From an uncultured Flavobacteriaceae bacterium (GTDB lineage: Bacteria; Bacteroidota; Bacteroidia; Flavobacteriales; Flavobacteriaceae), in the NCBI GenBank assembly GCA_913062575.1, contig CAJXVT010000001.1, forward strand, positions 62,001 to 126,000: DNA of 64,000 bases, given 5' to 3'. The position numbers were made by a program, and so were the translations under genes. The notes under the pieces are model-generated. The model saw nothing but the letters and a program-made list of their open reading frames with translations, was not told the DNA's origin and ran no database searches. Shown piece after piece: positions 11,333-47,172 of this stretch; position 1 is the first letter of the stretch; each line of letters begins with the position of its first letter.

Positions 11333-11368
11333 TTAATTCTTAGACTTTAAAGTACTTAAAAGGTTTAA

Positions 11369-22590: not shown

Positions 22591-22608
22591 TGGGAGATTT
22601 AATGGAAA

Positions 22609-25032: not shown

Positions 25033-25125
25033 TTTTATATAAATTGATTGATTAATGTAAAGACTTCAAAATTTGTGCTGTGTCACAGTATAGGATGTTA
25101 ATTAAATCTTAAAATATTTTTGAGG

Positions 25126-25133
25126 CAAATTTA
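25126..25133 (-). promoter_or_regulatory. -7 promoter element of DUF5916 gene 1
   Basis: CAAATTTA on the plus strand reads TAAATTTG, with a CAA (TTG) 17 bases further upstream at 25151-25153. It lies 93 bases before the start codon, leaving a moderately long leader. Confidence 0.45.
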
Positions 25134-25171
25134 TGAGCTATTTGACCTTTCAAAAAATGAAATGTAATGAA

Positions 25172-25266
25172 CTGTAAGAGTGGTGTATTCAATTGTATAA
25201 AAAAAGCTTCAAAATCATTTGAAGCTTTTTTAGTGTGACAATTTTTTGTGTTAAAAAATGTTTTTT
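25172..25266. repeat. Direct repeat copy 1: 3' flank of DUF5916 gene 2
   Basis: About 95 bases, beginning CTGTAAGAGTGGTGTATTC and running into the last codons of the gene, are nearly identical to 27807-27901. I see two or three mismatches. The repeat holds a terminator hairpin and therefore duplicates the whole 3' end. Confidence 0.9.
25199..25231 (-). terminator. Terminator of DUF5916 gene 2
   Basis: AAAAAAGCTTCAAA and TTTGAAGCTTTTTT form a perfect stem around ATCA with flanking A and T runs. The same hairpin follows gene 3. Confidence 0.85.
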
Positions 25267-27671: not shown

Positions 27672-27806
27672 CTGATATGTATTAATAATTTTTGATTGAT
27701 AGCATAAAGACATGAGAAAATTTAAAATGTCACATTCATATGTGTTAATTAAATCAAAAAATGATTTTAAGCACGAAAACTATCGTTGTTTATAAGTGTA
27801 AAAGGG

Positions 27807-27901
27807 CTGTAAGAGTGGTGTATTCAATTGTATAAAAAAAGCTTCAAAATCATTTGAAGCTTTTTTAGTGTGACAATCTTTTGTGTTAAAAGATGTTTTT
27901 G
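27807..27901. repeat. Direct repeat copy 2: 3' flank of DUF5916 gene 3
   Basis: This is the second copy of the 95-base sequence at 25172-25266, including the terminator and the final codons of the gene. Confidence 0.9.
27834..27866 (-). terminator. Terminator of DUF5916 gene 3
   Basis: Same AAAAAAGCTTCAAA/TTTGAAGCTTTTTT stem as behind gene 2. Confidence 0.85.
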
Positions 27902-30342
27902 ATATTGTTATAGTCTATGAAGTAGACAAATTTCAGTGAAAATGTATGTAAAGAAGGTTGATTAAATAATTCGTTAATGTTATTGATAAAGTTTAATGCA
28001 GATTGATCGTTGGCATTAAATATAGAGTTTCTGTAGAATGCTGTTAATTGACTTCCAGGAGCAAACTCCCAAAGATAATTTAAATCTAAATTCCAGCTAT
28101 TATAATTTACATCATGATTGCCTGTGTACCCATGATCTATTAAAGAACCATCTGTCTTTAAGCTATAAAATTGACTATTGTATTTTACCGTTTGCCAATA
28201 ATGTCTAAAGGATAATGATAAAGAGGATTTTGTACTAAAACTATATTTACTAGACAAGACATTTTCATATGAGTCAGAACCTCTTTTTCCAAAAACAATA
28301 TCATTATTGTCACCTCCAGTATATCCAACGGAGTTTTTAGTGTTACTGTATTTGATTTTATATATTAAACTCATTTTATTGCTAAAACGATACCTTGGAC
28401 CAAATTCAAAACCAAACCTTGATTCATCAGTTCCAAAAACTGTTCTAGCTCTTGCTTTTAAATCAAATGCAAATTGTTTTCTAAAGTCGGTTGAGATAAA
28501 CCCATCAAGTTCCATTTCAGAGTTTCTTTCTAGATAGCGTTGTTCAGAGATTTCTCTTCTTGGCTCGTAAAAATCTTTCTGTTTTCCAATCTTCCCTTTT
28601 GCGTTTAACCCAAATGAGAAGCGTTTTTTAGTGCCCGCAAAAAAACCTAGTCTATAATTGTTTCCTGTATAGACACCAGGTGTGTATAAAAAGCTGTTAA
28701 ATAACCTGAAGTTGACCATGAAGAAGTTGAAATTACCTACAGGTTTTAAAGTTCTATAACTTGCCATTGTGTAGATGGTCTGTTGGTTGTTCCTTCTTTG
28801 AAAACCGATATCATTATAATTAAATTTATCATCTTCCATGTTGTAACCAACTTCTCCTTGCCAGTTACCAGAAATTTTAGCAATACTAGAATCAAAAGCG
28901 TAACCAGTTTCTGTAGCGCCGTTCTCTTTTATGTTACTAGTTTTAATAAATCCATCAGCAAAATAAGTATTAGCCTTATTTGTTATGTGATAAAGTAACC
29001 CAGTTACATTTGCATCTCTAAAATCACCTTCTCTTAATACATTTGTATTAATAAAAGTTACAGAAGAATTTTTATTAAATTGTTGATCTAATACCAATAC
29101 ATTATAATTCGCTAAAGGTTCGGTGACTTTTTTATAATACTCATCAACTGTTGTGGTTCTTTGGGTTATAGTTCTTTTAATTGTTGCGCTGGTTTCATCA
29201 GTTATTGCATTAAAGAACCCTATTCCTAATCCACCTTTTGTTCTGCCAGAAATCTTTAAGGCGTTTAGCATATTTACTTTATTAGGGTTGTCAAACACTT
29301 CTTCATTTGAAGCTAAATTATCATAAGCAGTATAATATCCAACAGGTCTATTTCCAATTCTTCTAGAATAAAACATTCTTCCTTTGTTAAACAACTCTGT
29401 TCCTTCTGTAAAGAATTGTCTTTGTTCGTTAAAACGTTGTTCAAAAGGACTCAAATTTAAAGTGACATTATCAAAAGCAGTTTGCCCAAAATCTGGCACA
29501 AGTGTTAAATCCAATGTAAAATTTTCTGTAATTCCATATTTTAAATCCAGTCCTAAATTGTGATTGTTAACTGTTTCTCCATCAAAATGTGAAACTGAAG
29601 TTGAAGCATATGGATAAAAGCTTAAGCGGGTTGGTGGATTAATATTTCGAATCCCTTTAAGAATACCATCATATTGCGTACGTTTCCCTATTTTATTGTC
29701 AATATGGTTCCATGTGTATTGTGTATTCTGATTAATTATTTTTCTTAGAAATTGAATTCCCCAAGTTTGTACTTCTTGATTTGAAAAACGTAATGCAGAA
29801 TATGGAATTCTCATTTCTACAGACCAGCCGTTATCTAAAATTTGAACTGCACTTTTCCAAACGGCACTCCAACTTCTGTCGGGCCTTCTACTGTTGTCAG
29901 AAACTTTAGCATCTAATTGTGTTCCTGTAACCATTACATCGAATGAAGTTGCATTAACACCATCGTTATTAGGGTTAAGTATTAAAGAAAAATGATCAGC
30001 TTGCCCATCATTGTCTCTACTTGTAAATTCACTTGCTATTTTAGAAGGGTTTGGGTCGTACATCATTGCAGAAACATAAATTGCTTCATCGCTATATAAA
30101 ACTTTTACTTCAGTTCTATAATTAGGATCTTCTTTTTCTCCATTATTAGGTTCCAACATTATGAAATCATTGGCGATTTCTAATCCTTTCCAGGCATCAT
30201 CGGTAAGTAGACCATCAATTTTTGGAGTCTTATTAATGCTGCGTGTTGTGTTTAATGTTTTTTTAGGAATGTCTGTTTGAGAAAACAAAATAGAAGTCGT
30301 AAAAAGAGAGATGTAAAACAGTAGTTTAGAGTGTTTTATCAT
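27886..30342 (-). CDS. DUF5916 outer-membrane protein with CBM9-like domain (copy 3)
   Basis: The 818-aa protein has a signal peptide ending FTTSILFSQ, a CBM9-like domain (TPKIDGLLTDDAWKGLE) and a predicted C-terminal barrel ending NIKNIF. It is the most diverged of the three: the 600-660 region carries extra basic residues, and FNEPRQG is replaced by FYEPRREISEQ. Substrate unknown. It is transcribed from its own -7 box at 30371 and ends in the same terminator as copy 2. This makes the 3' ends of copies 2 and 3 more alike than some coding parts. Confidence 0.87.
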   Translation of the reverse strand: MIKHSKLLFYISLFTTSILFSQTDIPKKTLNTTRSINKTPKIDGLLTDDAWKGLEIANDFIMLEPNNGEKEDPNYRTEVKVLYSDEAIYVSAMMYDPNPSKIASEFTSRDNDGQADHFSLILNPNNDGVNATSFDVMVTGTQLDAKVSDNSRRPDRSWSAVWKSAVQILDNGWSVEMRIPYSALRFSNQEVQTWGIQFLRKIINQNTQYTWNHIDNKIGKRTQYDGILKGIRNINPPTRLSFYPYASTSVSHFDGETVNNHNLGLDLKYGITENFTLDLTLVPDFGQTAFDNVTLNLSPFEQRFNEQRQFFTEGTELFNKGRMFYSRRIGNRPVGYYTAYDNLASNEEVFDNPNKVNMLNALKISGRTKGGLGIGFFNAITDETSATIKRTITQRTTTVDEYYKKVTEPLANYNVLVLDQQFNKNSSVTFINTNVLREGDFRDANVTGLLYHITNKANTYFADGFIKTSNIKENGATETGYAFDSSIAKISGNWQGEVGYNMEDDKFNYNDIGFQRRNNQQTIYTMASYRTLKPVGNFNFFMVNFRLFNSFLYTPGVYTGNNYRLGFFAGTKKRFSFGLNAKGKIGKQKDFYEPRREISEQRYLERNSEMELDGFISTDFRKQFAFDLKARARTVFGTDESRFGFEFGPRYRFSNKMSLIYKIKYSNTKNSVGYTGGDNNDIVFGKRGSDSYENVLSSKYSFSTKSSLSLSFRHYWQTVKYNSQFYSLKTDGSLIDHGYTGNHDVNYNSWNLDLNYLWEFAPGSQLTAFYRNSIFNANDQSALNFINNINELFNQPSLHTFSLKFVYFIDYNNIKNIF

Positions 30343-30535: not shown

Positions 30536-31732
30536 ATGAATTTACACGAATATCAAGGAAAAGAAATCTTAAACAGTTTTGGCGTTAGAATTCAACGCGG
30601 AATTGTTGCAAGTAATCATAAAGCAGCAGTTGATGCAGCAAAACAATTAACAGTAGAAACTGGTACAAGCTGGTATGTTGTTAAAGCTCAGGTTCACGCT
30701 GGTGGACGTGGAAAAGGAGGAGGAGTTAAGTTGGCTAAAAACTTAGCTGAAGTTGAATCTATCTCTAATGATATCATTGGAATGATGTTGGTAACTCCAC
30801 AAACTTCTGCTGAAGGTAAAAAAGTAAACCAAGTTTTAATTTGTGAGGATGTTTATTATCCTGGAGATTCTGAGCCAGAAGAATATTACATGTCTGTTTT
30901 ATTAAACAGAAACACTGGTAAAAACATGATTATGTATTCTACTGAAGGTGGAATGGATATTGAAACTGTTGCTGAAGAAACTCCGCACTTAATTTTCACT
31001 GAAGAAATTGATCCTACAATGGGATTATTACCTTTTCAAGCACGTAAGATTGCCTTTAACTTAGGGTTGTCTGGTGTGGCTTTAAAAGAAATGACAAAAT
31101 TTGTATCTGCATTATATACTGCATACATAAAGTCAGATTCTTCAATGTTTGAAATTAATCCTGTTTTAAAAACATCAGATTCTAAAATCTTAGCTGTTGA
31201 TGCTAAAGTAACTTTAGATGAAAATGCATTATATAGACATAAAGATTATGCATTAATGCGTGATTTACGTGAAGAGAATCCTATTGAAGTAGAAGCGAAA
31301 GCTGCTGGTTTAAATTATGTTGATTTAGACGGTAATGTTGGATGTATGGTTAACGGAGCTGGATTGGCAATGGGAACTATGGATTTAATTAAACAAGCTG
31401 GAGGAGAGCCTGCAAACTTTTTAGATGTTGGTGGTACTGCAGATGCTGCACGTGTTGAAACTGCATTCGGAATTATCTTAAAAGATCCTAATGTAAAAGC
31501 AATCTTAGTAAATATTTTTGGTGGTATTGTACGTTGTGATAGAGTTGCACAAGGAGTTGTTGATGCATACAAAAGTATGGGAGACAAAATTAATGTGCCT
31601 ATTATTTGTAGATTACAAGGAACTAATGCTGTTGAAGCAAAGGAACTAATTGATAATAGCGGAATGGAAATCATTTCTGCTACAGAATTTCAAGAAGCAG
31701 CAGATAAAGTTGCAGACGTATTAGGTTTGTAA
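30536..31732 (+). CDS. sucC: Succinyl-CoA ligase (ADP-forming), beta subunit
   Basis: The 398-aa protein has the standard SucC length. MNLHEYQGKEIL opens an ATP-grasp domain; VKAQVHAGGRGKGGGVKL near residue 46 is the nucleotide-binding loop, FEINPVL near residue 200 supplies a metal ligand, and the C-terminal ligase domain contains NGAGLAMGTMD, FLDVGGTA and VNIFGGIVRCDRVA. With SucD it converts succinyl-CoA to succinate with ATP synthesis in the TCA cycle. sucD is not adjacent, which is usual in Flavobacteria. The gene is monocistronic, with its own promoter and terminator. Confidence 0.97.
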   Translation: MNLHEYQGKEILNSFGVRIQRGIVASNHKAAVDAAKQLTVETGTSWYVVKAQVHAGGRGKGGGVKLAKNLAEVESISNDIIGMMLVTPQTSAEGKKVNQVLICEDVYYPGDSEPEEYYMSVLLNRNTGKNMIMYSTEGGMDIETVAEETPHLIFTEEIDPTMGLLPFQARKIAFNLGLSGVALKEMTKFVSALYTAYIKSDSSMFEINPVLKTSDSKILAVDAKVTLDENALYRHKDYALMRDLREENPIEVEAKAAGLNYVDLDGNVGCMVNGAGLAMGTMDLIKQAGGEPANFLDVGGTADAARVETAFGIILKDPNVKAILVNIFGGIVRCDRVAQGVVDAYKSMGDKINVPIICRLQGTNAVEAKELIDNSGMEIISATEFQEAADKVADVLGL

Positions 31733-32581: not shown

Positions 32582-33805
32582 TTAAAATATTTTATAACCG
32601 AAATTAATTGAGAATGATTTGTACTCGTTCGTGTCCCAAGGGTCATTATAACCACCAACTGTATTAAATCTTCCAGACTTAAACATTTGTATGTTTAAAC
32701 TGTATTTTGAATCCCAATTGTAACCAGCTCCAACTACAAACCCTGCTGAAGAAATTATATCTAAATCTGACCTTGTGCTAGAAAGAAATTCAATTTTAGA
32801 GGTAAGGCTCAAATTAATAACATAACCAGCAGTAAGAGTAATTTTTGATTTTTTGTTTAAGAACATGTTATGCTTTATTCCCATTGGTGTCTTAATTGCG
32901 CTGTATTTAAAATTTAAAGGATGTGTAATTGGCAATGTAGGATTATTGTTGGTGAAACTATTAACTACTACATCAAAATCTTTTACAGAATAAGAATGGA
33001 AAGTTGGTTCAATAAACATGGCCCATTTTCCTTTGTTATTTGGAAGCGTATATTCAAATTCAACCCCAAATTGTGGTCTAATTTGTGAACCTAAATCATT
33101 GCTTCGCAATTCAAGACTTGAAAATTGAGCACCAACTTTTAAGTATATGTTGACGGGTTTTTTGATTGAACTGTACTCTTCATAAGCTACTGATGAAGAC
33201 TTTGTGCAAGTAGTATTGTAATTGTGAAAATAAGAAATTAGGTGTTTCTTTCTATAAACTGTTTTTTCTGTTTTTATTTTTTTACAAGGAAGATCTTTTT
33301 TTAATTGTAATTTAAATGCGTTATTTTCTGCAATAAGTCCAGAAGAAGTTAAATATTTTTTATGCTCTAGCTGGATTGGGTTTGAATTATTTATCTGGTA
33401 AAAAAAACGAAATAGCTGATTACTTTGGTACTGCCATAGAGATGCTTTTCCTGACACTAATAATTTTAAGAAGAGTGTTTCTTCTTTATAAATAGGATTT
33501 CTGTTATTCGTTAGTTTTCCTGTGCGATTACTTGAGCGGTCAATAGATAGAGTAAACCTTTTATAATGAATATTGGTGCCAATTTCGAAATTAGAAACAG
33601 TTTCAATTGTTCCGGTTTGTATTTTTGAGTTTTGAGTTAATCTATATTTAAACTCTACAGGATTGTTCTTCCAATCAATGTTTTTAATATAGCAGTTAGT
33701 TTTTGTTCCTGTATTTGTAGTAAATGATCCTTTTTCAAAAGAGATTTGTGCAAAAGAATTTAGGCATAGGAATGCCATTAAAATAAATAAAATTGTCTTT
33801 TTCAT
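32582..33805 (-). CDS. Outer-membrane beta-barrel protein
   Basis: The 407-aa protein has a signal peptide ending CLNSFAQ. The C-terminal ~190 residues show alternating amphipathic strands and end SINFGYKIF, with a terminal Phe, which fits an outer-membrane barrel of the porin-like beta-barrel group. The first ~200 residues contain a basic Cys-containing segment (KKDLPCKKIKTEKTVYRKK). Family membership beyond barrel is not clear and no substrate is suggested. It is on the minus strand next to a TPR/SPOR lipoprotein, from which it is separated by 119 bases, so co-transcription is uncertain. Confidence 0.7.
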   Translation of the reverse strand: MKKTILFILMAFLCLNSFAQISFEKGSFTTNTGTKTNCYIKNIDWKNNPVEFKYRLTQNSKIQTGTIETVSNFEIGTNIHYKRFTLSIDRSSNRTGKLTNNRNPIYKEETLFLKLLVSGKASLWQYQSNQLFRFFYQINNSNPIQLEHKKYLTSSGLIAENNAFKLQLKKDLPCKKIKTEKTVYRKKHLISYFHNYNTTCTKSSSVAYEEYSSIKKPVNIYLKVGAQFSSLELRSNDLGSQIRPQFGVEFEYTLPNNKGKWAMFIEPTFHSYSVKDFDVVVNSFTNNNPTLPITHPLNFKYSAIKTPMGIKHNMFLNKKSKITLTAGYVINLSLTSKIEFLSSTRSDLDIISSAGFVVGAGYNWDSKYSLNIQMFKSGRFNTVGGYNDPWDTNEYKSFSINFGYKIF

Positions 33806-34732: not shown

Positions 34733-36283
34733 CTATTTAGTAGCCTTATCTACTTCAATACGGTTTTCACGATTTGCTAATTCCCATGCTGTATGGAAAA
34801 CAAGACGAGATCTATTTTCTAACAAGTCATAATTAATTTTATCTGGAGTATCTGATGCTTGGTGATAATCATCATGTGTTCCGTTAAAATAGAAAATAAC
34901 AGGAATGTTGTTTTTTGCAAAATTATAATGGTCAGAACGGTAGTAAAAACGATTTGGATCGTTCTCTTCATTAAAGGTATAATCTAATTCGATATTTGTG
35001 AATTCTTTATTTACTTGTTCAGAAACTTCATGTAATTCTGTACTTAATTTATCAGCTCCAATTAAATAGATATAATTTCTTTCTCCTTTACGTTTTGGAT
35101 CAATACGTCCAACCATATCAATGTTTAAGTTAGCTACGGTATTTGTAAGTGGAACTAAAGGCTCATAATCAGTATAGTATTGAGAACCTAATAATCCTTT
35201 TTCCTCTCCTGTTACGTGTAAGAAAATAACTGAACGTTTTGGACCATGACCTTTATCAGCAGCAGCTTTAAAAGCTTCAGCAATTTCTAATATTGCAACA
35301 GTTCCAGAACCGTCATCATCTGCACCATTAAAAATCTCCCCTTTTGCATTCACTCCCACGTGATCTAAGTGCGCAGAAATGATAATGTATTCGTCTGGCT
35401 TTTCAGACCCTTTAATGATTGCGGCAACATTTTCAGATGCATGAGGTACTTTAATACTTTTGTAGCTCATTTCTAATTTTGTAGCAACTGTAGCAGTCTT
35501 TGTAGATTTAGTAATGTTACCTACTAAAGCTTTACCCATTTTTTCGCTAATTATGAAGTGATAGATTTGAGCTTCTGCATCTTTTTTAGTTGGTAATGAT
35601 AATCTCTTACTACCTCCATTTGCTTCACTTCTTTTATAGAATCTCGAATAACGCTTAAATAAATTATCATCCATAAAGAATAAGGCTGTAGCACCATTCT
35701 TTTTAGCTGCATTTCTTTTCGCTGAAATTGCTTGACGTCCATTTGACCACTTTGAAGCTTTTTTATCTCCGGTAAGTACATTGTTACCATCTTTATCTTG
35801 TGGTTCACCAGCTCTTACAACAACAACTTTTCCTTTTACATCAAGGTTTTTGTAGTCTGAGTGTTTTTCGTCATCAATTCCAAAACCTGCATACACAATG
35901 TCTGCAGCAGAAACTGATCCTGTTGCAACAGATGTTAGTGAAATGTAATCATCAAAATAGTTAAATGATTTTCCGTTTACAGAAATAGCAACCTCTGGTG
36001 TTTTTACAATATTTAAAGGTACATTTTGAAAATAGTTCCCTTCAATAAGAGAGTTAATTCCTAAAGCTTCATACTCTTTTTTAAGATACTCGATAGCTTT
36101 TTTTTGTCCAGGTGCTCCTGTATCACGCCCTTCAAATTCATCTGAAGCGTAAATGTATAAATGTTCTTTTAGCTCCTTTTGTGTAATAGTACTTCCGTAA
36201 GAAACAATGTCTTCTTTTGTAGCTTCTTTTTTACAAGAAAGGACTACTAACATTGCGCCTAATAATAATAGTGATTTTTTCAT
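34733..36283 (-). CDS. M28-family zinc aminopeptidase, lipoprotein
   Basis: The 516-aa protein has a lipoprotein signal ending LVVLSCKKE (Cys about residue 17). A PA-like inserted domain lies about residues 110-260 (DIVYAGFGIDDEKH, KGKVVVVRAGEP). The M28 catalytic part follows: SAHLDHVG near residue 305 (first zinc His and Asp), NGADDDGSGTVAILE (bridging Asp), HVTGEEKGLLGS (catalytic Glu and zinc Glu), NLNIDMVGR, and YYRSDHYNFA near residue 445 (last His). Such exopeptidases process peptides at the cell surface or periplasm. The sequence is complete with no missing ligand. Confidence 0.93.
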   Translation of the reverse strand: MKKSLLLLGAMLVVLSCKKEATKEDIVSYGSTITQKELKEHLYIYASDEFEGRDTGAPGQKKAIEYLKKEYEALGINSLIEGNYFQNVPLNIVKTPEVAISVNGKSFNYFDDYISLTSVATGSVSAADIVYAGFGIDDEKHSDYKNLDVKGKVVVVRAGEPQDKDGNNVLTGDKKASKWSNGRQAISAKRNAAKKNGATALFFMDDNLFKRYSRFYKRSEANGGSKRLSLPTKKDAEAQIYHFIISEKMGKALVGNITKSTKTATVATKLEMSYKSIKVPHASENVAAIIKGSEKPDEYIIISAHLDHVGVNAKGEIFNGADDDGSGTVAILEIAEAFKAAADKGHGPKRSVIFLHVTGEEKGLLGSQYYTDYEPLVPLTNTVANLNIDMVGRIDPKRKGERNYIYLIGADKLSTELHEVSEQVNKEFTNIELDYTFNEENDPNRFYYRSDHYNFAKNNIPVIFYFNGTHDDYHQASDTPDKINYDLLENRSRLVFHTAWELANRENRIEVDKATK

Positions 36284-36377
36284 TTTATCTGGTTGTTATA
36301 TGTAAGTAATCTACGATATTACAAAAAAGAACTAATACATAGTTTGAAAGTGTATCTTTTAACACTTTTTAACAAAA

Positions 36378-36431
36378 TTACAAATGTCTTTTTAACACCT
36401 CAATTTCATCTCTAAACTATGATGCTGATAA
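36378..36431 (-). pseudogene. Decayed second copy of the uvrB 3' end
   Basis: Read on the minus strand, these 54 bases encode LSAS-stop-FRDEIEVLKRHL-stop. Intact uvrB ends LSAAQFRDEIEVLKRHL. The last 37 bases shared by both (36382-36418 and 37626-37662) are identical, while further upstream the copy has decayed and its Gln codon has become TAG. It marks the old junction of uvrB with the sequence leading to the M28 gene. Confidence 0.85.
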
Positions 36432-36513
36432 AGTTCAATAAGGATGGATATTATATACAAGGAATCTCTTGACATAATTTTGTTAAAAACACCTTACAAC
36501 TGCGAGAGGTTAT

Positions 36514-37602
36514 CTATTTGTATTCTTTTAACATATTGTTAGAATATGAAGAGATTTTAGAGTCAATATTAAAGTTTTCATTAAAAGATGTAATAGCATT
36601 TTCTGAATAAGACTCCCAATTATTCATTACTTTATTTAAGTTCTTAAGTAATGAAAATTTTATGTCATTAGAGTAAAATAAGCCATTTTTGTTATTGATT
36701 ATTTCTGTGGATCCTTCTGTTTTTGTAGCTAATACAGGGGTTCCTTCTCTAAGTGACTCAACCATAGTGTTTCCAAAAGATTCAGAAACACTTGAATTTA
36801 TTATTACTAATGAATTGGCAAACGTAACAAATAATTCTTTTTGAGGTAAAGAATTAATAAAAACAATATTATCAAAAACATTATTTTTTTTAGAATAAGA
36901 AATGATTTCTTCTTTTAAGTTTCCATTACCAATAATTTTCAGTTTTATGTCAGGAAATTCTGATAAAACATCTTTAAATTGTTTAATTAATTTTATATGT
37001 CCTTTGGATTTATGTAACCTGCCTGCTATAATTATTGATTGACTCCTATCCTTTAGGTTAATGTATTTAATATTTGAAGGACTGAAAAGGTTTGTATATA
37101 CACCTGTATTCTGATTTTTAACAAATTTTTTATTTATGCTATCTATTAATGTTCCTTTAGAATTGGTGTAAATATGTGTGTTTAGTCTATAAATTATTCG
37201 TTTTCGTGTAATTAGAAATTTATATTTTAATTTGTTGTCAGAGTCAATTTCTGTTTGTTGACTAGTTGTTCTAATCCAAATAATTCTATTTTTAACTCTA
37301 AAAAAGAATGCTATAAGAGTCATTATATTTCCAGAGCCAAACATAGACATTGTCATATATGGCTTGTATTTTTTTATTAACTTGAAGAGAAAGATAAAAT
37401 CTTTAATTTTTGTTGGTCTTTTTGAGGGCCAATTATAATAGGTTATTTTATTTCTATTGATTGGTAACAGGTGATTTGGACAATCTAAAATAAATACAAC
37501 ATTAATATTGTCTTTAGTGAATTCTTCTCCTAGCCTTTTGAATTGATAATTAATTGTTGATGTAAAACTTGAAGTCGCTATGAATATTGTTCTCTTTTTC
37601 AT
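36514..37602 (-). CDS. Glycosyltransferase family 4 protein, probably acquired
   Basis: The 362-aa protein has the GT-B fold of the GT4 family. The N-terminal half is Rossmann-like with FGSGNIMTLIAFFF near residue 90. The C-terminal half has SIIIAGRLHKSKGHIKLI near residue 190, LKIIGNGNLKEEI near residue 222 and the donor-binding EX7E motif in SESFGNTMVESLREGTPV near residue 277. It should move a sugar from a nucleotide donor to a surface glycan; donor and acceptor are unknown. The gene is visibly richer in A and T than its neighbours, no other glycan gene is nearby, and it is bounded by two copies of the uvrB 3' end, so horizontal insertion is likely. Confidence 0.88.
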   Translation of the reverse strand: MKKRTIFIATSSFTSTINYQFKRLGEEFTKDNINVVFILDCPNHLLPINRNKITYYNWPSKRPTKIKDFIFLFKLIKKYKPYMTMSMFGSGNIMTLIAFFFRVKNRIIWIRTTSQQTEIDSDNKLKYKFLITRKRIIYRLNTHIYTNSKGTLIDSINKKFVKNQNTGVYTNLFSPSNIKYINLKDRSQSIIIAGRLHKSKGHIKLIKQFKDVLSEFPDIKLKIIGNGNLKEEIISYSKKNNVFDNIVFINSLPQKELFVTFANSLVIINSSVSESFGNTMVESLREGTPVLATKTEGSTEIINNKNGLFYSNDIKFSLLKNLNKVMNNWESYSENAITSFNENFNIDSKISSYSNNMLKEYK

Positions 37603-37621
37603 TAATATATTTTTCGCTAAT

Positions 37622-39610
37622 TTATAAATGTCTTTTTAACACCTCAATTTCATCTCTAAACTGAGCTGCAGATAAAAAGTCTAATTCTTTAGCTGCTTGT
37701 TCCATGTGTTTACGGGCATTTCTAATTCGTTTTTCAATCTCTGGTTTAGGCAAGTATTCTAAACCTGCTTCTGCAGCTTTATTTTTTGCATTGTCATAAT
37801 GATATGAAGAAACCTCACTCTTAGTTAGCGCATTATCTATGGCTTTAACAATTTGTTTTGGCGTAATATTATTTTCTGTATTGTAATCGATTTGTTTTTC
37901 TCTTCTTCTATTAGTTTCGTCAATTGTTAACTGCATACTTTTTGTAACTTTATCAGCATACATAATTGCCAAACCATTTAGGTTTCTTGCTGCTCTTCCA
38001 ATAGTTTGTGTTAGCGATCGATGTGAACGTAAAAAGCCTTCTTTATCTGCATCTAAAATAGCAACTAAAGAAACTTCAGGTAAATCAAGCCCTTCTCTTA
38101 ATAGATTGACACCAATCAAAACATCAAATTCTCCCTTTCGTAACCCCAACATTATTTCTACACGTTCTAAAGTATCAACATCTGAATGTATATAACGACA
38201 ACGAACTTGAATTCGAGTTAAATACTTTGCCAATTCTTCTGCCATTCGTTTGGTTAATGTTGTTACTAATGTACGTTCGTCTTTTTCTACACGAACCTGA
38301 ATCTCTTCAATCAAATCATCTATCTGATTTAAACTTGGACGAACTTCAATTGTTGGGTCTAACAAGCCTGTAGGACGAATGATTTGCTCAATAAACACCC
38401 CTTCTGTTTTTTGTAATTCATAATCCGCAGGTGTTGCACTTACATAAATTACTTGATTTTGAATTTCTTCAAACTCCTCAAATTTTAAAGGGCGGTTATC
38501 CATAGCAGAAGTGAGCCTGAAACCGTGTTCTACTAAGTTTTCTTTTCTGCTTCTATCTCCACCATACATAGCATGTGTTTGCGGAATTGTAACATGGCTT
38601 TCGTCAATAACCATTAAATAATCATCTGGAAAATAGTCTAACAAACAGAAAGGACGTGTTCCTGGTTCTCTTCCATCTAAATAGCGAGAATAATTTTCAA
38701 TTCCAGAACAATAACCCAACTCACGTATCATTTCTAAATCGAATTCTGTACGCTCTTTTAATCGTTTTGCTTCTAGATGTTTTCCTATTTCTTGAAAGTA
38801 ATCTACTTGCTTCATCATATCATCTTGAATCAAATGAATGGCATTCTGTAAGACATCTGGAGAAGTCACAAATAGGTTAGCTGGATATATTGTTAAATTC
38901 TGAAATTTTTCTAAAATAGCATTGCTTTCTAACTCAAAAGATTCAATTTCATCTATTTCATCACCAAAAAAATGTACTCTATATCCATTGTCTCCGTATG
39001 ATGGATAAATGGTGATAACGTCACCTTTTACTTTAAATGTTCCGCTTTTAACATCAAATTCTGTTCTAGAATATAAACTGGTTACCAGTTGATGTAAGAA
39101 CTTGGTTCTTGATATTGCTTGGCCAACTTCAATCGGAATTACATTCTTTTTAAATTCTACAGGATTCCCGATTCCATATAAACAAGAAACTGATGCAATA
39201 ACAATTACATCTCTTCTGCCAGAAAGTAGGGCAGAAGAGGTGCTTATTCTTAAGCGTTCAATATCATCATTGATAGATAAATCTTTTTCAATATATGTTC
39301 CTGTTACTGGTAAATAGGCTTCAGGCTGATAATAATCGTAATAGGAAACAAAATATTCTACAGCATTCTCTGGAAAAAACTGTTTAAACTCAGAATACAA
39401 TTGAGCTGCTAATGTTTTGTTATGTGCCAAAACCAATGTTGGTCTATTTATTTTTTCAACTACATTTGCTACAGTAAAGGTTTTTCCAGAGCCAGTTACT
39501 CCTAGCAATGTTTGGTGTTTTTCTCCTGTTCCTATCCCATTTGTTAGCTGTTCAATAGCCTGAGGTTGATCTCCTGTAGGTTTAAATTTTGAGTGTAATT
39601 GAAAATCCAT
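37622..39610 (-). CDS. uvrB: Excinuclease ABC subunit B
   Basis: The 662-aa protein is full length. Walker A lies in LGVTGSGKTFTVANV near residue 38, the beta-hairpin in YFVSYYDYYQPEAYLP near residue 87, helicase motifs in VIDESHVT and TSAMDNRPL, QTIGRAARN near residue 540, and the C-terminal UVR coiled-coil motif (AAKELDFLSAAQFRDEIEVL) at the end. UvrB is loaded by UvrA at lesions and recruits UvrC for nucleotide excision repair. Its final 37 bases before and including part of the stop region occur again at 36382-36418, so the insertion regenerated an intact 3' end. Confidence 0.97.
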   Translation of the reverse strand: MDFQLHSKFKPTGDQPQAIEQLTNGIGTGEKHQTLLGVTGSGKTFTVANVVEKINRPTLVLAHNKTLAAQLYSEFKQFFPENAVEYFVSYYDYYQPEAYLPVTGTYIEKDLSINDDIERLRISTSSALLSGRRDVIVIASVSCLYGIGNPVEFKKNVIPIEVGQAISRTKFLHQLVTSLYSRTEFDVKSGTFKVKGDVITIYPSYGDNGYRVHFFGDEIDEIESFELESNAILEKFQNLTIYPANLFVTSPDVLQNAIHLIQDDMMKQVDYFQEIGKHLEAKRLKERTEFDLEMIRELGYCSGIENYSRYLDGREPGTRPFCLLDYFPDDYLMVIDESHVTIPQTHAMYGGDRSRKENLVEHGFRLTSAMDNRPLKFEEFEEIQNQVIYVSATPADYELQKTEGVFIEQIIRPTGLLDPTIEVRPSLNQIDDLIEEIQVRVEKDERTLVTTLTKRMAEELAKYLTRIQVRCRYIHSDVDTLERVEIMLGLRKGEFDVLIGVNLLREGLDLPEVSLVAILDADKEGFLRSHRSLTQTIGRAARNLNGLAIMYADKVTKSMQLTIDETNRRREKQIDYNTENNITPKQIVKAIDNALTKSEVSSYHYDNAKNKAAEAGLEYLPKPEIEKRIRNARKHMEQAAKELDFLSAAQFRDEIEVLKRHL
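37626..37662. repeat. 37-bp direct repeat at the uvrB 3' end
   Basis: AAATGTCTTTTTAACACCTC and the following 17 bases are identical to 36382-36418. The two copies flank the glycosyltransferase gene in direct orientation. Confidence 0.92.
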
Positions 39611-39657: not shown

Positions 39658-41100
39658 TTATTTTCTAAGCAAACTAAAATGCCCAGTTTGTTTTCTGATA
39701 TTTCCATTAATATCTTCTAAAACAGCATTGAACCAATAATCATTTGATGGTAGTTTTTTTCCATTGTAAGTCCCATTCCAACCATTATCATCTTTGTGAT
39801 TGATAATGGCAACAACTTTTCCATATCGATCAAATATTTGCACTTCTGCTTTGGTGTAGAAGGCATTATCTGCTCCCATTACTTTCCATGTATCAAAGAC
39901 GCCATCATTATTTGGTGTAAAATGCCTTTGAAAAAACAAGAAAGATAATTGCTGACTACTTGTAATTCCACAGCCATTTTTATCTCTTATGTACACGGTA
40001 TGTAATCCAGGACTAATTTGATTAAAAGTGAAAGATAAATTTTCTGTTCCTTTTGAGAAACTTGCAGGGTTTGTACTGTTTAGTGCATATTCATAATCTC
40101 CAATTCCAGAAATAGTAATCGTAAGCGTGTTTTCTGTTGGATTGTCAACATTATCTGTTAGTTCTGTAGCCGTAATTAATGCTTTGTTAGATTCAATTAC
40201 AGTAAATGTATTATAACCTGTACAAGAAGAATCGTCTAAGGGATTTTCAATATCATTTTGATATGCTCTATAGGCTTCTACATAATAAGTTCCTTGCACA
40301 TTTGCTTTGTGAACAGCACTTGTTGCTCCAGTAATTAAATTTCCGTTTAAAAACCATTGATAGATGTCTGTTTGAGTTCCTGTATCTGCATTTAAATCTA
40401 TCGTTATTGGTTGAGGATTGTCTATAGGATTGTTTACACATAGATACAAAGGAGCTGTGTTTCCTTGCGGAATTGGACGCGTGTTTACAAATACTTTAAA
40501 TTGACCGATACCAGAACAAGCATTGGTTCCAATAGTAGATATTCGAACAAAAACATCTGAATTATTAACAAACAAATCATCATCATACGGAGTTTCAATT
40601 AGATTTGTTTGCAGCGCAGCATCATTAGCTGTTCTGTAATATTCAAAGGTGTGTGTTGCTAAAGAAAAAGCACCATTAGAATCTGCAATAATAGCATCTG
40701 TTTTAGCATTGAAATCATAGTATGTGTTTCCAGACCCAAGACTGTTTACTGCGCCAGGTATGTTTGCGTTTAAGTCTATCTCACATCCGTACATATCTGG
40801 GTAATTACTTAAACTAGTTGGATTTACTTTCAATTCAATTTCACCAAATTCAACACATCCAGTACTAGTATTGGTTAGTCTGGCAATTACTTTGTAGTTG
40901 TTTACTAATGTTGTTGTTAAGTTGGTATAAGAGTTTTTATTACTAATTGGAGAGGTAAAGTTAATATCCGATGTTTCAAAAAAGTCAACAATTATATTTG
41001 CAACATTGTTTGTGAGTTCTGCTTCTTTAGATTCTAAATTAAAAATGGTAATTCCATCTATTGGATTTGAATCAATATCACATTGTTCGTAAGCAGGAAT
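39658..41100. repeat. Paralogous 3' segment A of the two T9SS genes
   Basis: This part of the first T9SS gene matches 44266-45720 of the next gene both in DNA and protein, with runs such as CACCATCATTATTTGGTGTA identical. It covers about the last 480 codons. Confidence 0.85.
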
Positions 41101-44100
41101 AGTAGTAAATATAGGTTTTGGGTCTACGTTTAAGATTATGGAGTTTGAAGTAAATTCACAACTGTTTCCAGTTCTTCCTAGTTGAACTCTGAATTGATGA
41201 TTGTTGTATGTTGTTAATACATCAGTAATTAACAAACTGTTAGTTATTGCTCCACTATATACTGTATTATCAATAATATCATTCCAGTTTACTCCGTCTG
41301 TACTAAGTTGCCATTGAAAAGTGTCAGCATTTGAATCTATGGTTAGATTTGAGTTTGTGGCTTCACAAAAAACAATATCTTCAAATGGTGAGTTTAAAAC
41401 AATTGGAGCAGCGACTAAATAATTGATATGTGGAGTTGTATATCCATCAGTAACATTGATAACTTGACCCAATGTGTTAACCGTGATGGGTAAATCCCCT
41501 AACAAACCATCACTATTTATATCAGTAAACCCAGCTTCGGTAACGTCAAAACAGGTGTCATTATCACTATCTAATTCTAAAAAGTTGAATATTGAATCAG
41601 TATCTGTGTCTATAATGATATATCCTATTAAATTACTATCAGGATTGGTTTCAAGCGTATCAACAAAACCATTTAAACCAATTAATGCGATTGCATTATC
41701 AATCATTCCGTCAAAATCTGTATCTGGTAAACCATGACCAGACTCTTCTAAGTCAAAAACCCCATCATTATCAGAATCTACATCTAAGAAGTTGAACACA
41801 GTATCGTTATCCGAATCTGAAGGTGAAATTGCAATATCAAAAACATCGTCTAAGCCATCAATATTTGCATCTGTATTTAATAACGTTATATGGGTACCAT
41901 TCTTTTCTACTAGATCAGGAATTCCATCATTGTCAGAATCAGCATCTAAGCTATTGACAATTCCATCATTGTCAGTGTCGATATCAAAACTTGTTAACTG
42001 TATATTTCCAGCAAAAACAGAGTTTTCTGTTAGGTTGCTCAAATGATGTGCAAAAGAAATTTGACTTACTTGATTTGCAATAAATTGATACGGTGTTGAT
42101 CCACTAGAACTTGGGTTGTATTTGAATCTGATTTCTGATGCAGAAAAATCTACTACTCCAGATTCGAAAATCCCATCAAAATTTGTGTCAACCAATAGTT
42201 GATTGTCAGGATCTAAAAGTGTTATGTTTTTGTTTGATGGCGCTATTTTTATAATAAAATATTCGCCAGTAATATTTGTATGATTTGTACCTGTAGTTTC
42301 TGTAAAATTAAAATTGACAGGCTGTGTAAAACCTAAAGTATACTCTAAATTAGAGGTGTTTGCAGCTTTTGCTGTAGAGGTAAAATTACCATTACTTTGA
42401 CCAATAAATGTATTTGTTGTTCCGTTAATATTGTTCTGTGTAAATGTGCTTGAGATGATGGATGCATTTGTTGTTGCGTCTATAAAAACAATTTCTGGAT
42501 TCGAGATGTCTACCAAGTTTAGGGAAGCGTCACCTTTTCCTTCGTCAGAATTTAAAATTCCGTCATTATCAATATCAATATCTTTGTTGTCAATGATTCC
42601 ATCATTATCGTAATCATCAGGGCAAATACTTACAGGGATTTCAACCGATTCAAACTGTAAACCAGAACAATTTATAGTTGCTATTAATTTATAGTTACCG
42701 GGTAGCGTAGGAACAAGGTTACTACTTGTAATCCCTGTTGTAACATACCCAGATCCATCATCAAAAAACCATTCAAACTGATCGAAAATATCAATATTTG
42801 TTGCAGACAATGTTATGTTAGGAATACAAGTTCCTAAGGTTTGAACAGTTGTATTTAAATTTATTTCAGGAGCTGATGGGAAACCAGAATAAAAACTTCC
42901 AGAAGTTGCTGCTCCATTAAAATTATAGTAGGCGCAATACAATTCTCCAGAGCTTTCTATAGAGACATCTCCTGTTAATCCAGAGACTTTATATGTCACA
43001 TAATTTGTATTACCAGTTACATCTTGTGGTAACGCATTAATAGGTTGTGAATTAACAGTAACTGTTGCATTTTTGTTAGTAATAATTGTAATACCACCAG
43101 TATAAATTGTGGTTCCAATATTTTGAATGCTAGCAATAGAATTTACATTTCCTCTGTTTTCACAACTTAATGGAGGAACAAAAAACAACCCTTGATTTGC
43201 TTCACTATTATTTGCACCAATTCCTTGATATGCAAATACATTTTTACTTGTAGAGACATACATGTTTTGGTTGGCAGAATAATTATCTCCTTCAATCAGG
43301 TAGTATTCACCTGCATTTATGGTTGTAATTGGTGTATTTCCGTTAATACTAATGCTTGTGTTGTCTTCATGAGCAACAAGCAGCACGTTTTCCCAATTAT
43401 TATTACCATCTCCTTTTACAAAGATATATTCGTTTCCTACTTTTGAATAATCTACAATTTGATCGATTCCATAATCTCTTCCGCCGCCATTATCAAAACT
43501 ACCATTAGCAGAGCCAGAGTTTACAACAATTGGTTTATCAGACTGTACCAAAGCGCCAATCAATCCATCTCGATTTATAACACTTTCAGAGCTATTTGTA
43601 GCAATTGTGTAGCTTTCTCCTTCATCTAAATTGATGACAACAGGAAAAGTTCCAGTATAATTTTTTATTATTAATCCAACAGGTAAATCATCAAAAGTCA
43701 CAACAGTGTTGTCTTCTGTAGCCATAACAGATACAAAATTCATGTAGTTTGTTTGTGGGTTTTGATTTGTAAAAGAACCGACTCTAAATGTGCTTCCTAA
43801 TGCAGATAGTCCTTTGCTTACTAAAGCTCCAGCTTGTGCTCCATTTCCAGCTTTCATTCTTAAAGACACATAAATAACATCTTCGGCTTCTATGATATAG
43901 CCTTTGTTGTTTTGTACAACACTAGATTGGTTTGATTCGATAAAAAGTTGTCCATATCCTGTTCCTAACGAAATTTCAACAGGACTTGTGTTCGAAACGA
44001 TCCCAGAAATAGTACTTGATGATGGTTGTCCAACAGGCGTTATTGTATAAGTAACATTTTTTGTGCTTGGTGTAGAAATATAAAAATACTGACTTTCTGG

Positions 44101-44232
44101 ATTTGCATTTCCAAACTCAGCACTTGTTAATGGCGGAATAAAATGCTTTTTACTTAATTGTGCCTGAATTTTTGTTGAACAGACAAGTAGTACGAATAAA
44201 AATAGTAGAAATATTTCAGATTTATTTTTCAT
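39658..44232 (-). CDS. Giant secreted T9SS protein with type B sorting domain
   Basis: Started at MKNKSEIFL (44232; the track start is a GTG two codons earlier), the protein has 1524 aa and a signal peptide ending TKIQAQ. Residues about 30-360 resemble the IgGFc-binding-protein N-terminal domain of adhesins. The middle contains several Asp-rich calcium-binding type-3-thrombospondin-like runs such as DNDGIIDNKDIDIDNDGI, from about 545 to 920. Ig-like domains follow, and the last ~85 residues (FTPNNDGVFDTWKV to GHFSLLRK) are the gliding-motility/type B T9SS sorting domain. It should be exported by the type IX system and act at the surface, perhaps in adhesion or gliding. Confidence 0.88.
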   Translation of the reverse strand: MKNKSEIFLLFLFVLLVCSTKIQAQLSKKHFIPPLTSAEFGNANPESQYFYISTPSTKNVTYTITPVGQPSSSTISGIVSNTSPVEISLGTGYGQLFIESNQSSVVQNNKGYIIEAEDVIYVSLRMKAGNGAQAGALVSKGLSALGSTFRVGSFTNQNPQTNYMNFVSVMATEDNTVVTFDDLPVGLIIKNYTGTFPVVINLDEGESYTIATNSSESVINRDGLIGALVQSDKPIVVNSGSANGSFDNGGGRDYGIDQIVDYSKVGNEYIFVKGDGNNNWENVLLVAHEDNTSISINGNTPITTINAGEYYLIEGDNYSANQNMYVSTSKNVFAYQGIGANNSEANQGLFFVPPLSCENRGNVNSIASIQNIGTTIYTGGITIITNKNATVTVNSQPINALPQDVTGNTNYVTYKVSGLTGDVSIESSGELYCAYYNFNGAATSGSFYSGFPSAPEINLNTTVQTLGTCIPNITLSATNIDIFDQFEWFFDDGSGYVTTGITSSNLVPTLPGNYKLIATINCSGLQFESVEIPVSICPDDYDNDGIIDNKDIDIDNDGILNSDEGKGDASLNLVDISNPEIVFIDATTNASIISSTFTQNNINGTTNTFIGQSNGNFTSTAKAANTSNLEYTLGFTQPVNFNFTETTGTNHTNITGEYFIIKIAPSNKNITLLDPDNQLLVDTNFDGIFESGVVDFSASEIRFKYNPSSSGSTPYQFIANQVSQISFAHHLSNLTENSVFAGNIQLTSFDIDTDNDGIVNSLDADSDNDGIPDLVEKNGTHITLLNTDANIDGLDDVFDIAISPSDSDNDTVFNFLDVDSDNDGVFDLEESGHGLPDTDFDGMIDNAIALIGLNGFVDTLETNPDSNLIGYIIIDTDTDSIFNFLELDSDNDTCFDVTEAGFTDINSDGLLGDLPITVNTLGQVINVTDGYTTPHINYLVAAPIVLNSPFEDIVFCEATNSNLTIDSNADTFQWQLSTDGVNWNDIIDNTVYSGAITNSLLITDVLTTYNNHQFRVQLGRTGNSCEFTSNSIILNVDPKPIFTTIPAYEQCDIDSNPIDGITIFNLESKEAELTNNVANIIVDFFETSDINFTSPISNKNSYTNLTTTLVNNYKVIARLTNTSTGCVEFGEIELKVNPTSLSNYPDMYGCEIDLNANIPGAVNSLGSGNTYYDFNAKTDAIIADSNGAFSLATHTFEYYRTANDAALQTNLIETPYDDDLFVNNSDVFVRISTIGTNACSGIGQFKVFVNTRPIPQGNTAPLYLCVNNPIDNPQPITIDLNADTGTQTDIYQWFLNGNLITGATSAVHKANVQGTYYVEAYRAYQNDIENPLDDSSCTGYNTFTVIESNKALITATELTDNVDNPTENTLTITISGIGDYEYALNSTNPASFSKGTENLSFTFNQISPGLHTVYIRDKNGCGITSSQQLSFLFFQRHFTPNNDGVFDTWKVMGADNAFYTKAEVQIFDRYGKVVAIINHKDDNGWNGTYNGKKLPSNDYWFNAVLEDINGNIRKQTGHFSLLRK

Positions 44233-44265
44233 TGCCACTAATATAAATGAAAAATATGAAAGAGC

Positions 44266-45720
44266 TTATTTTCTTAGCAAACTAAAATGTCCGGTTTCTT
44301 TTCTGATATTTCCATTCATGTCTTCAAGTACTGCATTGAACCAGTAATCGTTTGACGGTAGTTTTTTGCCGTTATAAGTTCCGTTCCACCCATCACTGTC
44401 TTTATCAGTGATTAAAGCAACAACTTTTCCGTATCTGTCAAATATTTCTACTCTAGCTGATTTATAAAAACTATTGTTTGATCCAAGAATTTTCCAAGTA
44501 TCATACACACCATCATTATTTGGTGTAAAATGCCTTTGAAAAAACAAGAAAGATAATTTTTGGCTAGAAGTTGTTCCGCAGCCATTAAGGTCTCTAATGT
44601 AAACAGTATTTAGCCCTGGTTTAACTTCGTCAAAAGTAAAGGTTAAGTTTCCTGTGCCTTTAGAAAAACTTGAAGGATTTGTACTATTCAATGCGTATTC
44701 ATAATCTCCAATTCCAGAAATTGTAATCTTAAGGATATTTTTTTCTGGGTTGTCAACATTGTCTGTTAATGTAGTAGAAACTATAAGGGCTTTATTCGAT
44801 TCAATAATGGTAAATGTGTTGTAACCAGTACTGCTTGTGTTGTCATTAGGGTCATTAACATCATTCTGATATTCTCTGTAAGCGATTACTTTATAAGTTC
44901 CTTGAACATTTGCTTTGTGAATAGCATTTGTAGCTCCAGTAATTAAATTGCTATTTAAAAACCATTGATAGGTATCAGTTGGGATTCCTGTATCAGCATT
45001 TAAATCGATTGTAATTTGCTGAGGGTTGTCAATCGGGTTATTGACACATAAATATTGAGCGTTTGTATTTCCAAGTGGAATAGGACGTGTATTTACAAAA
45101 ATTTTAAACTGTCCAATTCCAGAACAAGCATTTGTTCCAATGGTTGAAAGACGCACAAAAATAGTTGAATTATTTACAAAATAATCATCATCATAAGGAG
45201 CAACAATTTGATTTGTTTGTAAAGTAGCATCAGTTGCTGTTCTGTAATATTCAAAAGTATGTGTTGCTAAAGAAAAGGCGCCTCCAGAATTTGCAATTAT
45301 ATCTGTTGTTTTAAGATCAAAATCAAAGAAAACATTCCCAGAGCCTAAACTATTTGTAGAATTTGGAATGTTTGCATTTACATCAGATTCTGTTAAGTAT
45401 AAATCAGGATAACTTGCTAATGAAGTCGCATTTGTTTTTAACTCAATTTCTCCAAATTCTTGACAACCACTTGTGTTATTTGTAATTCGAACAGTAAGTT
45501 TATGTGAATTAAGGTTTGTAGAAATTAGGTTTCTATAATTCCCTTTGTTAAGTATTGGGTTGGTGAAGTTAACATCTGAAGTTTCAAAAAACTCTACAGT
45601 AACATCTAACGCATTATTTGTTAAAAGACCTTCTTTAGATTGTAAGTTGAAAGAAGTAATTCCATCGGCAGGATTAGAATCAAAATCACACTGCTCATAT
45701 AAAGGAATAGAAAACACTTC
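44266..45720. repeat. Paralogous 3' segment B of the two T9SS genes
   Basis: Second copy of the shared segment at 39658-41100. The N-terminal halves of the two genes are unrelated, so the boundary near YEQCD marks a module junction. Confidence 0.85.
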
Positions 45721-47172
45721 AGGCAAGGGAAGGAATTCTACTTCAACTGAGCTATTGTACTTATTTATTCTTCCACAAGCATCTATAATTATCATTTCTA
45801 AATTATACACCCCAGTTCCATAATTTACGTAATCAATTGAAATACTTCTGGTTGTTATATTTACACTTGGGTCTCCTTTTTTGGTCCATTTATAAGTCGA
45901 CCCTGAAACTCCAACTATTTCAGGCTCCATATCTAAAACTTGACCATTACAAACAAATTGTTTCTCTTCGTTTAAATTGATTGTTTTTGTATCAATATCT
46001 ACAATGTTTATTGGAGAGAAGAAAGATTGTATAAAAGGTGGCAAACCTTCAGATGAAGTTGCTAATCCTAATGAAACTCCATCATGAATATAATTAACGT
46101 CTAAACCGTCATTTTCTGGGAAATTGATTACACCTAAAGTGTTTTCTCTACTTTTTGCATAATATATTTTACCATCTGCCCCTAACTGTAAAGCACCGCG
46201 AAACCCTGTAAAGGAATGAATGTTTACTCGTGAGTTGTTTATTATATTGATATCTGAAGATTCAATGTCAAACTGGTATAAAGTGGTGTTTTCAGGGTCG
46301 TTGTTGTTTTGACTATGTGTACCAGTAGAAATGTATAATTTCTTACTATTTTGAGAAAATTCAACGCCATAGCCTAAATTAGAACTAATATTAATTGCTC
46401 TTTGGTTTGTAATAATTCCACTTTGAGTATCAAAATCAAAAATATAAGTGTTTTCTTGTTGATTTGCAGAAACAATTTTAGTTCCGTCAGGAGAAACTTT
46501 TAAATAACCTCTTCTGCTAAATATTGGACTACTTATCGGTGATATTATTGGTGAAGTAACCTGCACTCCATTAGTGTCAATTTTATAAGCATAAAACTCA
46601 TCGTATGTACTAGAAATAATCCAGAAGGTATCACAGTCTTTTCCTTGTACAGAAGTGATTTTTTCAGACCAATTATCACCATTTCCATTTGATAAATCAA
46701 TGGAGCCAGAAAGAACCTCTCCTAAACCAGCATTTTTTGTAAGGTCTATAGTGTACAAGTTTAAGCCATATCCATCTTCTATTTTTGTACCACCACTAAA
46801 ACTTGGTCCATTATCTACAGTAAATAAATAATAAATATCTGTAATGGTTGGATGTGGCACAACTACAGCAGATTGAGTGCTTGAAGGGTTTCCTAATAAA
46901 TCATCAGCAGGTAAACCATTTGTATAATTCATTATAGTATGAGTTTTATCCCATACTGTAATCCCATCAGAATAAAAAAGAAGATTTCCTTCTTTGTCTG
47001 CAATTGTCGAACATCCTTCAAATGTATCTAATTGTCCGTCTACTAAAGCTACGGGGGATCCAGAAGAAAAATCGAGTCCGGCATTGTGACCGAAATACCA
47101 AAAATTCGCCTCTTTTTGCCCGTAAGTACTAATTGTAATTAGAAATAATATAGCACTTAAAAATATTCTCAT
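44266..47172 (-). CDS. Secreted T9SS protein with beta-propeller and type B sorting domain
   Basis: The 968-aa protein has a signal peptide ending TISTYGQ. Its first ~370 residues look like a beta-propeller, with NFWYFGHNAGLDFSSG at the start and repeating blades such as GYLKVSPDGTKIVSANQ. From about residue 485 (YEQCDFDSNP) to the end it is near-duplicate to its neighbour: Ig-like segments, then FTPNNDGVYDTWKI to GHFSLLRK, the type B sorting domain read by the type IX system. Role: surface-exposed, probably adhesion or motility; ligand unknown. It lies 33 bases upstream of the other T9SS gene, so both are likely in one operon. Confidence 0.88.
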   Translation of the reverse strand: MRIFLSAILFLITISTYGQKEANFWYFGHNAGLDFSSGSPVALVDGQLDTFEGCSTIADKEGNLLFYSDGITVWDKTHTIMNYTNGLPADDLLGNPSSTQSAVVVPHPTITDIYYLFTVDNGPSFSGGTKIEDGYGLNLYTIDLTKNAGLGEVLSGSIDLSNGNGDNWSEKITSVQGKDCDTFWIISSTYDEFYAYKIDTNGVQVTSPIISPISSPIFSRRGYLKVSPDGTKIVSANQQENTYIFDFDTQSGIITNQRAINISSNLGYGVEFSQNSKKLYISTGTHSQNNNDPENTTLYQFDIESSDINIINNSRVNIHSFTGFRGALQLGADGKIYYAKSRENTLGVINFPENDGLDVNYIHDGVSLGLATSSEGLPPFIQSFFSPINIVDIDTKTINLNEEKQFVCNGQVLDMEPEIVGVSGSTYKWTKKGDPSVNITTRSISIDYVNYGTGVYNLEMIIIDACGRINKYNSSVEVEFLPLPEVFSIPLYEQCDFDSNPADGITSFNLQSKEGLLTNNALDVTVEFFETSDVNFTNPILNKGNYRNLISTNLNSHKLTVRITNNTSGCQEFGEIELKTNATSLASYPDLYLTESDVNANIPNSTNSLGSGNVFFDFDLKTTDIIANSGGAFSLATHTFEYYRTATDATLQTNQIVAPYDDDYFVNNSTIFVRLSTIGTNACSGIGQFKIFVNTRPIPLGNTNAQYLCVNNPIDNPQQITIDLNADTGIPTDTYQWFLNSNLITGATNAIHKANVQGTYKVIAYREYQNDVNDPNDNTSSTGYNTFTIIESNKALIVSTTLTDNVDNPEKNILKITISGIGDYEYALNSTNPSSFSKGTGNLTFTFDEVKPGLNTVYIRDLNGCGTTSSQKLSFLFFQRHFTPNNDGVYDTWKILGSNNSFYKSARVEIFDRYGKVVALITDKDSDGWNGTYNGKKLPSNDYWFNAVLEDMNGNIRKETGHFSLLRK

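Follow-up and report, generated by a model that had tools for sequence, protein, structure and literature searches.

Insertion of a glycosyltransferase gene at the 3′ end of uvrB and recurrent duplication of core-gene ends in a genus of Flavobacteriaceae

The uvrB locus and its empty counterparts

The stretch of DNA analyzed here (64,000 nucleotides, in the following called the window) originates from an uncultured Flavobacteriaceae bacterium, whose genome carries the number G000 in the comparison with its relatives. Its genus is the one holding Tenacibaculum and some Polaribacter genomes. In the direction of transcription, the intact uvrB of the window is followed by a gene for a GT4-type glycosyltransferase, a broken second uvrB end and the gene of an M28 peptidase (Table 1). 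The presence of this second end beyond the glycosyltransferase, the 37 identical bases shared by both ends and the AT-richness of the enclosed gene had been pointed out in the initial annotation of the window, and all three could be reproduced. The second end, which reads LSAS-stop-FRDEIEVLKRHL-stop, matches the end of uvrB over 55 bp (90.9% identity, E ~1e-15). Within the window the 37-bp block occurs exactly twice, and the mismatches of the extended 55-bp match are all located outside of it (permutation p = 0.004). The bases upstream of the block are indeed diverged, as had been annotated, yet they are still recognizable as uvrB for ~18 bp before the homology ends. The GC content of the glycosyltransferase gene is below that of uvrB (0.336), the M28 gene (0.333) and the entire window (0.311), and it is the lowest among the 39 ORFs of at least 200 aa in the window.

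Table 1. Features of the uvrB locus (positions in the window; an empty cell in the strand column denotes a non-coding feature)
Feature	Position	Strand	Remarks
uvrB, intact	37622..39610	-	UvrB, UvrB_inter and UVR domains; relatives 82-91% identical
Last 55 bp of intact uvrB, copied at 36378-36432	37622..37676	-	
37-bp identical block, copy in intact uvrB	37626..37662	-	
19-bp spacer between uvrB and glycosyltransferase gene; differs from native post-uvrB spacer	37603..37621		comparison with G092
GT4-type glycosyltransferase, cargo, AT-rich	36514..37602	-	PF00534, 5.5e-24; GC 0.249
81-bp tail from glycosyltransferase stop to uvrB remnant	36433..36513		presumably foreign
uvrB 3′-end remnant (native end)	36378..36432	-	
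37-bp identical block, copy in remnant	36382..36418	-	
Native uvrB-M28 spacer	36284..36377		homologous to spacer directly after uvrB in empty-site genome G092
M28 peptidase, native downstream neighbor	34733..36283	-	domain match; order in relatives
sucC, core gene facing uvrB across the hotspot	30536..31732	+	scar in 5 other genomes, none seen here

Empty sites with a single uvrB end in front of the M28 gene, which the initial annotation had predicted, exist in two relatives. In G092, the uvrB of which is 89% identical, the M28 gene lies ~105 bp after uvrB with no gene between, and G066 likewise passes from uvrB to M28 in ~105 bp. Other cargo, which had also been anticipated at this site, is present as well, with other genes being located between uvrB and M28 in G011, G087, G014, G153 and G025. 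The bases after uvrB in G092 match those after the far copy in G000, not those after the intact uvrB. As the post-uvrB spacer of G092 corresponds to the sequence beyond the far copy, the gene end beyond the glycosyltransferase is the native one, and the enclosed 1.2 kb were inserted. Compared to G092, the recipient end is duplicated in G000 and the native spacer is retained. The nearest relative of the glycosyltransferase in the genus is 46% identical (search over 98 genus genomes), and neither a close copy nor a donor of its gene was found with the thresholds applied to 168 genomes of the genus and 400 of the family.

Recurrence at uvrB, sucC and other gene ends

DNA downstream of uvrB was surveyed from ~154 of the 168 genomes of the genus. 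Nine uvrB-end remnants (~55-255 bp) were found among these loci, distributed over eight genomes (G000, G009 with two remnants, G028, G037, G039, G075, G079 and G159). An opposite-strand control of the same ~154 loci did not yield any match at 1e-4, and no uvrB remnants were present in 80 loci from the wider family. G075 and G079 contain the same cargo and may perhaps not be independent. The single-contig genomes G009, G028, G037 and G039 show the same layout as the window. Overall, the cargo at uvrB varies and includes GT4 enzymes, outer-membrane-type proteins, a propeller protein, a HisKA-like membrane protein, a Bor-type lipoprotein and a VWA protein. The glycosyltransferase insertion belongs to a class of events that recur. 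Among the passengers found beside uvrB in the genus, members of an outer-membrane-barrel-like family recur most often, and this family is also represented in the window at 32582-33805, three genes past the uvrB remnant.

In G009 (locus L116) two of these scars are stacked, in the order uvrB, cargo, remnant, outer-membrane-type cargo and older remnant. The remnants are located at +3281 to +3558 and +6080 to +6221 from the uvrB stop, the outer one is older and more decayed, and the cargo differs between the two. An outward position of the older remnant would result from every new gene being inserted beside uvrB.

The usual partner of uvrB in the genus is sucC, which faces it within 8 kb in 107 genomes. 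No gene lies between the two in 23 of them, while the rest contain one to six genes. Where genes intervene, the first one after uvrB is co-oriented with uvrB in 65 cases and opposed in 19. A gene-end scan of the loci (2242 ORFs, 3.3 Mb) unveiled that sucC exhibits a scar in five of the 107 genomes (G043, G045, G082, G110 and G126; remnants of 194-311 bp), which, judging from shared cargo and borders, represent about three events. A single scar at proA was found in G104. A second gene-end scan (~800 kb, 624 ORFs) yielded one further scar, which belongs to the window's own genome. On contig C5 of G000 (L286), 79 bp from the end of a gene for a YitT-type membrane protein (10741-11583) are repeated at ~9563-9641, and a reversed SPFH/stomatin-like gene lies between the gene and the remnant. 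Reversed cargo also accompanies a gene-end scar in Lutibacter flavus (L141). As sucC, proA and the YitT gene are scarred too, the process is general but concentrated at uvrB and sucC. Duplications of the 5′ end, the upstream mirror of these scars, were not seen for sucC, and the other 5′ matches in the gene-end scans look like paralogs or repeats.

A counterpart at sucC is a PL28 ulvan-lyase insertion, which is present in G110 (L248) and absent from its 99%-identical sister G111 (L244). In G110 the duplicated stretch flanking the ulvan-lyase gene extends from -202 of sucC through its terminator. As the insertion of G110 is also present in G043, it appears possible that G111 has lost it by recombination between the repeats, which may have been precise.

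Routes of insertion

The identical stretch shared by remnant and intact uvrB varies from event to event. Relative to the uvrB end, it covers -39 to -3 in G000, ~-78 to -25 in G028 and ~-234 to -72 in G009, and the block conserved in G000 falls precisely into a diverged part of G009. No crossover core shared between independent uvrB events was found. In addition, none of the 13 carriers inspected contains a tyrosine integrase (PF00589) within 40 kb of uvrB; a serine recombinase or an integrase acting in trans could have escaped this search. A left border at ~-234, near an A-rich tract, is common to G009 and G037. A fixed left border for all remnants was considered and rejected, as G075 comes close to this position (~-228), but other starting points are seen in G028, G000 and the sucC events.

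For one event a donor-like relative could be identified. The insert of G037 is 96.5% identical over 1.4 kb to the sequence directly after uvrB in G033. Where this insert ends, G033 runs on into its own terminator, with no uvrB remnant there, and G037 lacks an internal part (two genes) of the G033 arrangement. By eye, the remnant of G037 exhibits ~5 differences from its own uvrB between ~-234 and -45, whereas the uvrB of G033 differs at ~20 positions. The spacer of G037 is G033-like, and the last ~45 bp of its intact uvrB are less clearly so (also judged by eye). In G037, the alignment is best explained by homologous recombination near the end of uvrB at one border of the insert and by a joint lacking homology at the other border, the recipient end being retained in two copies. 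The combination of these two joints, which characterizes homology-facilitated illegitimate recombination (HFIR), was found for G037 only. Inspection of its joint revealed only short similarity, the donor not being exact, and clear microhomology was seen at none of the joints.

A site-specific element was rejected because the duplicated stretch varies between events, several genes serve as targets and no tyrosine integrase was found within 40 kb of uvrB in the 13 carriers. Favored instead as the origin of the glycosyltransferase gene, with a probability of about 0.68, is a homology-assisted insertion that needs no integrase and duplicates the gene end. Incoming DNA would have consisted of a donor uvrB end followed by the glycosyltransferase gene, a donor side that is proposed by analogy with G037. 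On one side it would have recombined with the recipient uvrB end by homology. Its other side would have been attached, with at most limited homology, somewhere within the recipient uvrB end, so that the last uvrB bases of the recipient were kept twice. One copy of these bases would then complete a working uvrB and the other one persist as a dead remnant beyond the cargo. Such an insertion would presumably depend on RecA, and the order of strand exchanges described here is likewise presumed. Acting at core-gene 3′ ends, at which inserted DNA causes little damage, the same mode of insertion could have turned the convergent uvrB-sucC interval into a hotspot of the genus. The recurrence of such scars with other passenger genes suggests that related sea bacteria gain single genes by ordinary recombination at core-gene ends and not via a dedicated mobile element.

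Natural transformation is a plausible route of uptake. DprA is present in the genome of the window and ComEC in 39 of 39 good genus genomes; ComEC was not found in the genome of the window, which is 68% complete. Members of the Flavobacteriaceae such as Riemerella are competent (PMC7965970).

Some observations count against plain HFIR. Recipient DNA is duplicated here, where HFIR usually deletes it, and the remnants of G009, G037, G082, G110 and G043 are also diverged at their left edge, with a nearly identical middle, which is not predicted by plain HFIR. Also to be counted against the favored insertion are the left border common to G009 and G037, the lack of clear microhomology, the lack of a donor for the glycosyltransferase and the weak signal for a genus-wide co-transfer of the uvrB tail with the cargo (+1.6 points for the last 50 bp, p 0.004, from non-independent pairs). 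The weakness of this signal is partly explained by many of the "shared" downstream regions being inherited sucC. The diverged left edges fit better with a donor that already contained a remnant (double crossover), with an end-joined circle or with later gene conversion. All three routes are integrase-free and use the recombination of the cell itself, and no firm choice is made among them.

The end-joined circle also represents the strongest rival for the glycosyltransferase event itself. Here, a circle of donor uvrB end and glycosyltransferase gene would have entered the uvrB end through a single homologous crossover of the Campbell type, likewise without an integrase. It would give the same layout and account for the diverged left edges of the remnants. 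In E. coli, partial duplications are the main product obtained with one-ended homologous DNA; these comprise 109-950 bp of the lacZ end and were attributed to circles missing part of the homology (PMC3240628). The same duplications are a laboratory precedent for the favored insertion as well. However, a circle predicts donor sequence left of the crossover, whereas the remnant of G037 is closer to its own uvrB than to that of the donor-like G033, unless gene conversion followed. Also speaking against a circle, the intact sucC end of G110 hardly differs from that of the empty-site relative up to and including the terminator. Integration of a circle is regarded as rather unlikely.

The initial annotation had favored an element carrying its own uvrB end, for which it suggested looking for an integrase elsewhere; this would be a small CIME-like unit, integrated site-specifically with an integrase provided in trans. 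One half of this view, an acquired insertion leaving a second gene end, agrees with the results presented here, while the other half, an integration core of its own, had to be given up. In line with such an element, direct repeats are located on both sides of the cargo, one of which completes the target gene (37 bp identical, 55 bp at 91%), the first gene downstream of uvrB is in most cases co-oriented with it, and several insertions occurred at the same gene end. Yet, the events have no core in common, the same scar is found at sucC, proA and the YitT gene, reversed cargo exists, the repeats reach up to 311 bp, and the vicinity of uvrB is devoid of tyrosine integrases in the 13 carriers, which makes site-specific integration quite improbable. 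To a similar degree improbable is a dedicated gene-capture process of the clade, which would recognize 3′ ends of core genes, add single-gene cassettes in a last-in-first-out manner and rely on a novel recombination protein for the long duplications.

An old local tandem duplication of the uvrB end without foreign DNA would explain the partial direct duplication, but it was rejected because of the empty site in G092 and the composition of the glycosyltransferase gene, which exceeds the other large ORFs of the window in AT content, lacks any close relative in the searched genomes (the initial annotation would have taken the same gene in all relatives as a sign of such a duplication) and is absent from the empty sites. 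An assembly error is just as far-fetched, as despite the incomplete genome with its 87 contigs the two copies differ, the contig has a length of 137 kb and the single-contig genomes exhibit the same layout.

Relation to known systems

In mechanism, the favored homology-assisted insertion is closest to HFIR, and in its setting it is closest to the integrase-free hotspots described in 2017 (PMC5635113). HFIR is known from Streptococcus pneumoniae, Acinetobacter baylyi and Pseudomonas stutzeri (PMC3240628), and it shares with the events described here the homology on one side, the non-homologous joint on the other and inserts in the order of ~1 kb. Classical HFIR, however, mostly deletes recipient DNA and exhibits 3-10 bp of microhomology (PMC3240628), whereas here duplication was observed and clear microhomology was not seen. 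With the integrase-free hotspots the uvrB-sucC interval has in common a fast turnover of single genes between two core genes and the lack of a recognizable mobile element. Unlike in the model for these hotspots, which assumes a double homologous crossover in both flanks (PMC5635113), the end of one flanking gene is present in two copies, which mark the event.

Insertion with long target duplication (Nobusato et al., 2000, Gene 259:99) is described for Helicobacter pylori, where it mainly concerns restriction-modification genes (PMC1643837, PMC3154945). The likeness consists in a gene being placed between two direct copies of a long target stretch that is single in the empty allele, an arrangement which is seen for G000 compared to G092 and for G110 compared to G111. 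Unlike in the Helicobacter cases, the cargo is ordinary (GT4, OMP, PL28, Bor, VWA and HisKA-type) and does not include a restriction-modification system, and the insertions target core-gene ends at a hotspot and can be stacked. Restriction-modification cargo is typical of this kind of insertion, but perhaps not a defining feature.

Integrative elements of the CIME, ICE and island type sit in 3′ ends of protein genes. They resemble the scars in the regenerated gene end and the direct repeats at both ends, but the scars have no integrase nearby, no fixed core and several unrelated target genes. From integron gene cassettes they differ in the lack of a nearby integrase and in the varying orientation of the cargo, which is reversed at the YitT gene and in L141. 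Altogether, ordinary cargo, core-gene ends as targets, stacking and the concentration in one genus give these insertions a character of their own among the known kinds.

Many hotspots of gene gain in bacteria do not contain an integrase, and the uptake of genes at these sites has mostly been deduced from statistics (PMC5635113). Gene-end duplications, in turn, are readable scars of single events, which give the insertion point, the recombining side and sometimes a donor-like relative. If the favored homology-assisted insertion is true, genome scans for duplicated gene ends would allow such events to be counted across bacteria and related to natural transformation. Examples of single genes introduced by the process in this clade are the ulvan lyase beside sucC and the glycosyltransferase beside uvrB.

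Two further observations concern other genes of the window. At ~22600-30342, on the minus strand, the window contains tandem paralogous genes of ~820 aa with similar C-terminal ends. The genes at 39658-44238 and 44266-47172 encode adjoining large secreted proteins, which exhibit nearly the same gliding-motility-type C-terminal domain (ending GHFSLLRK).
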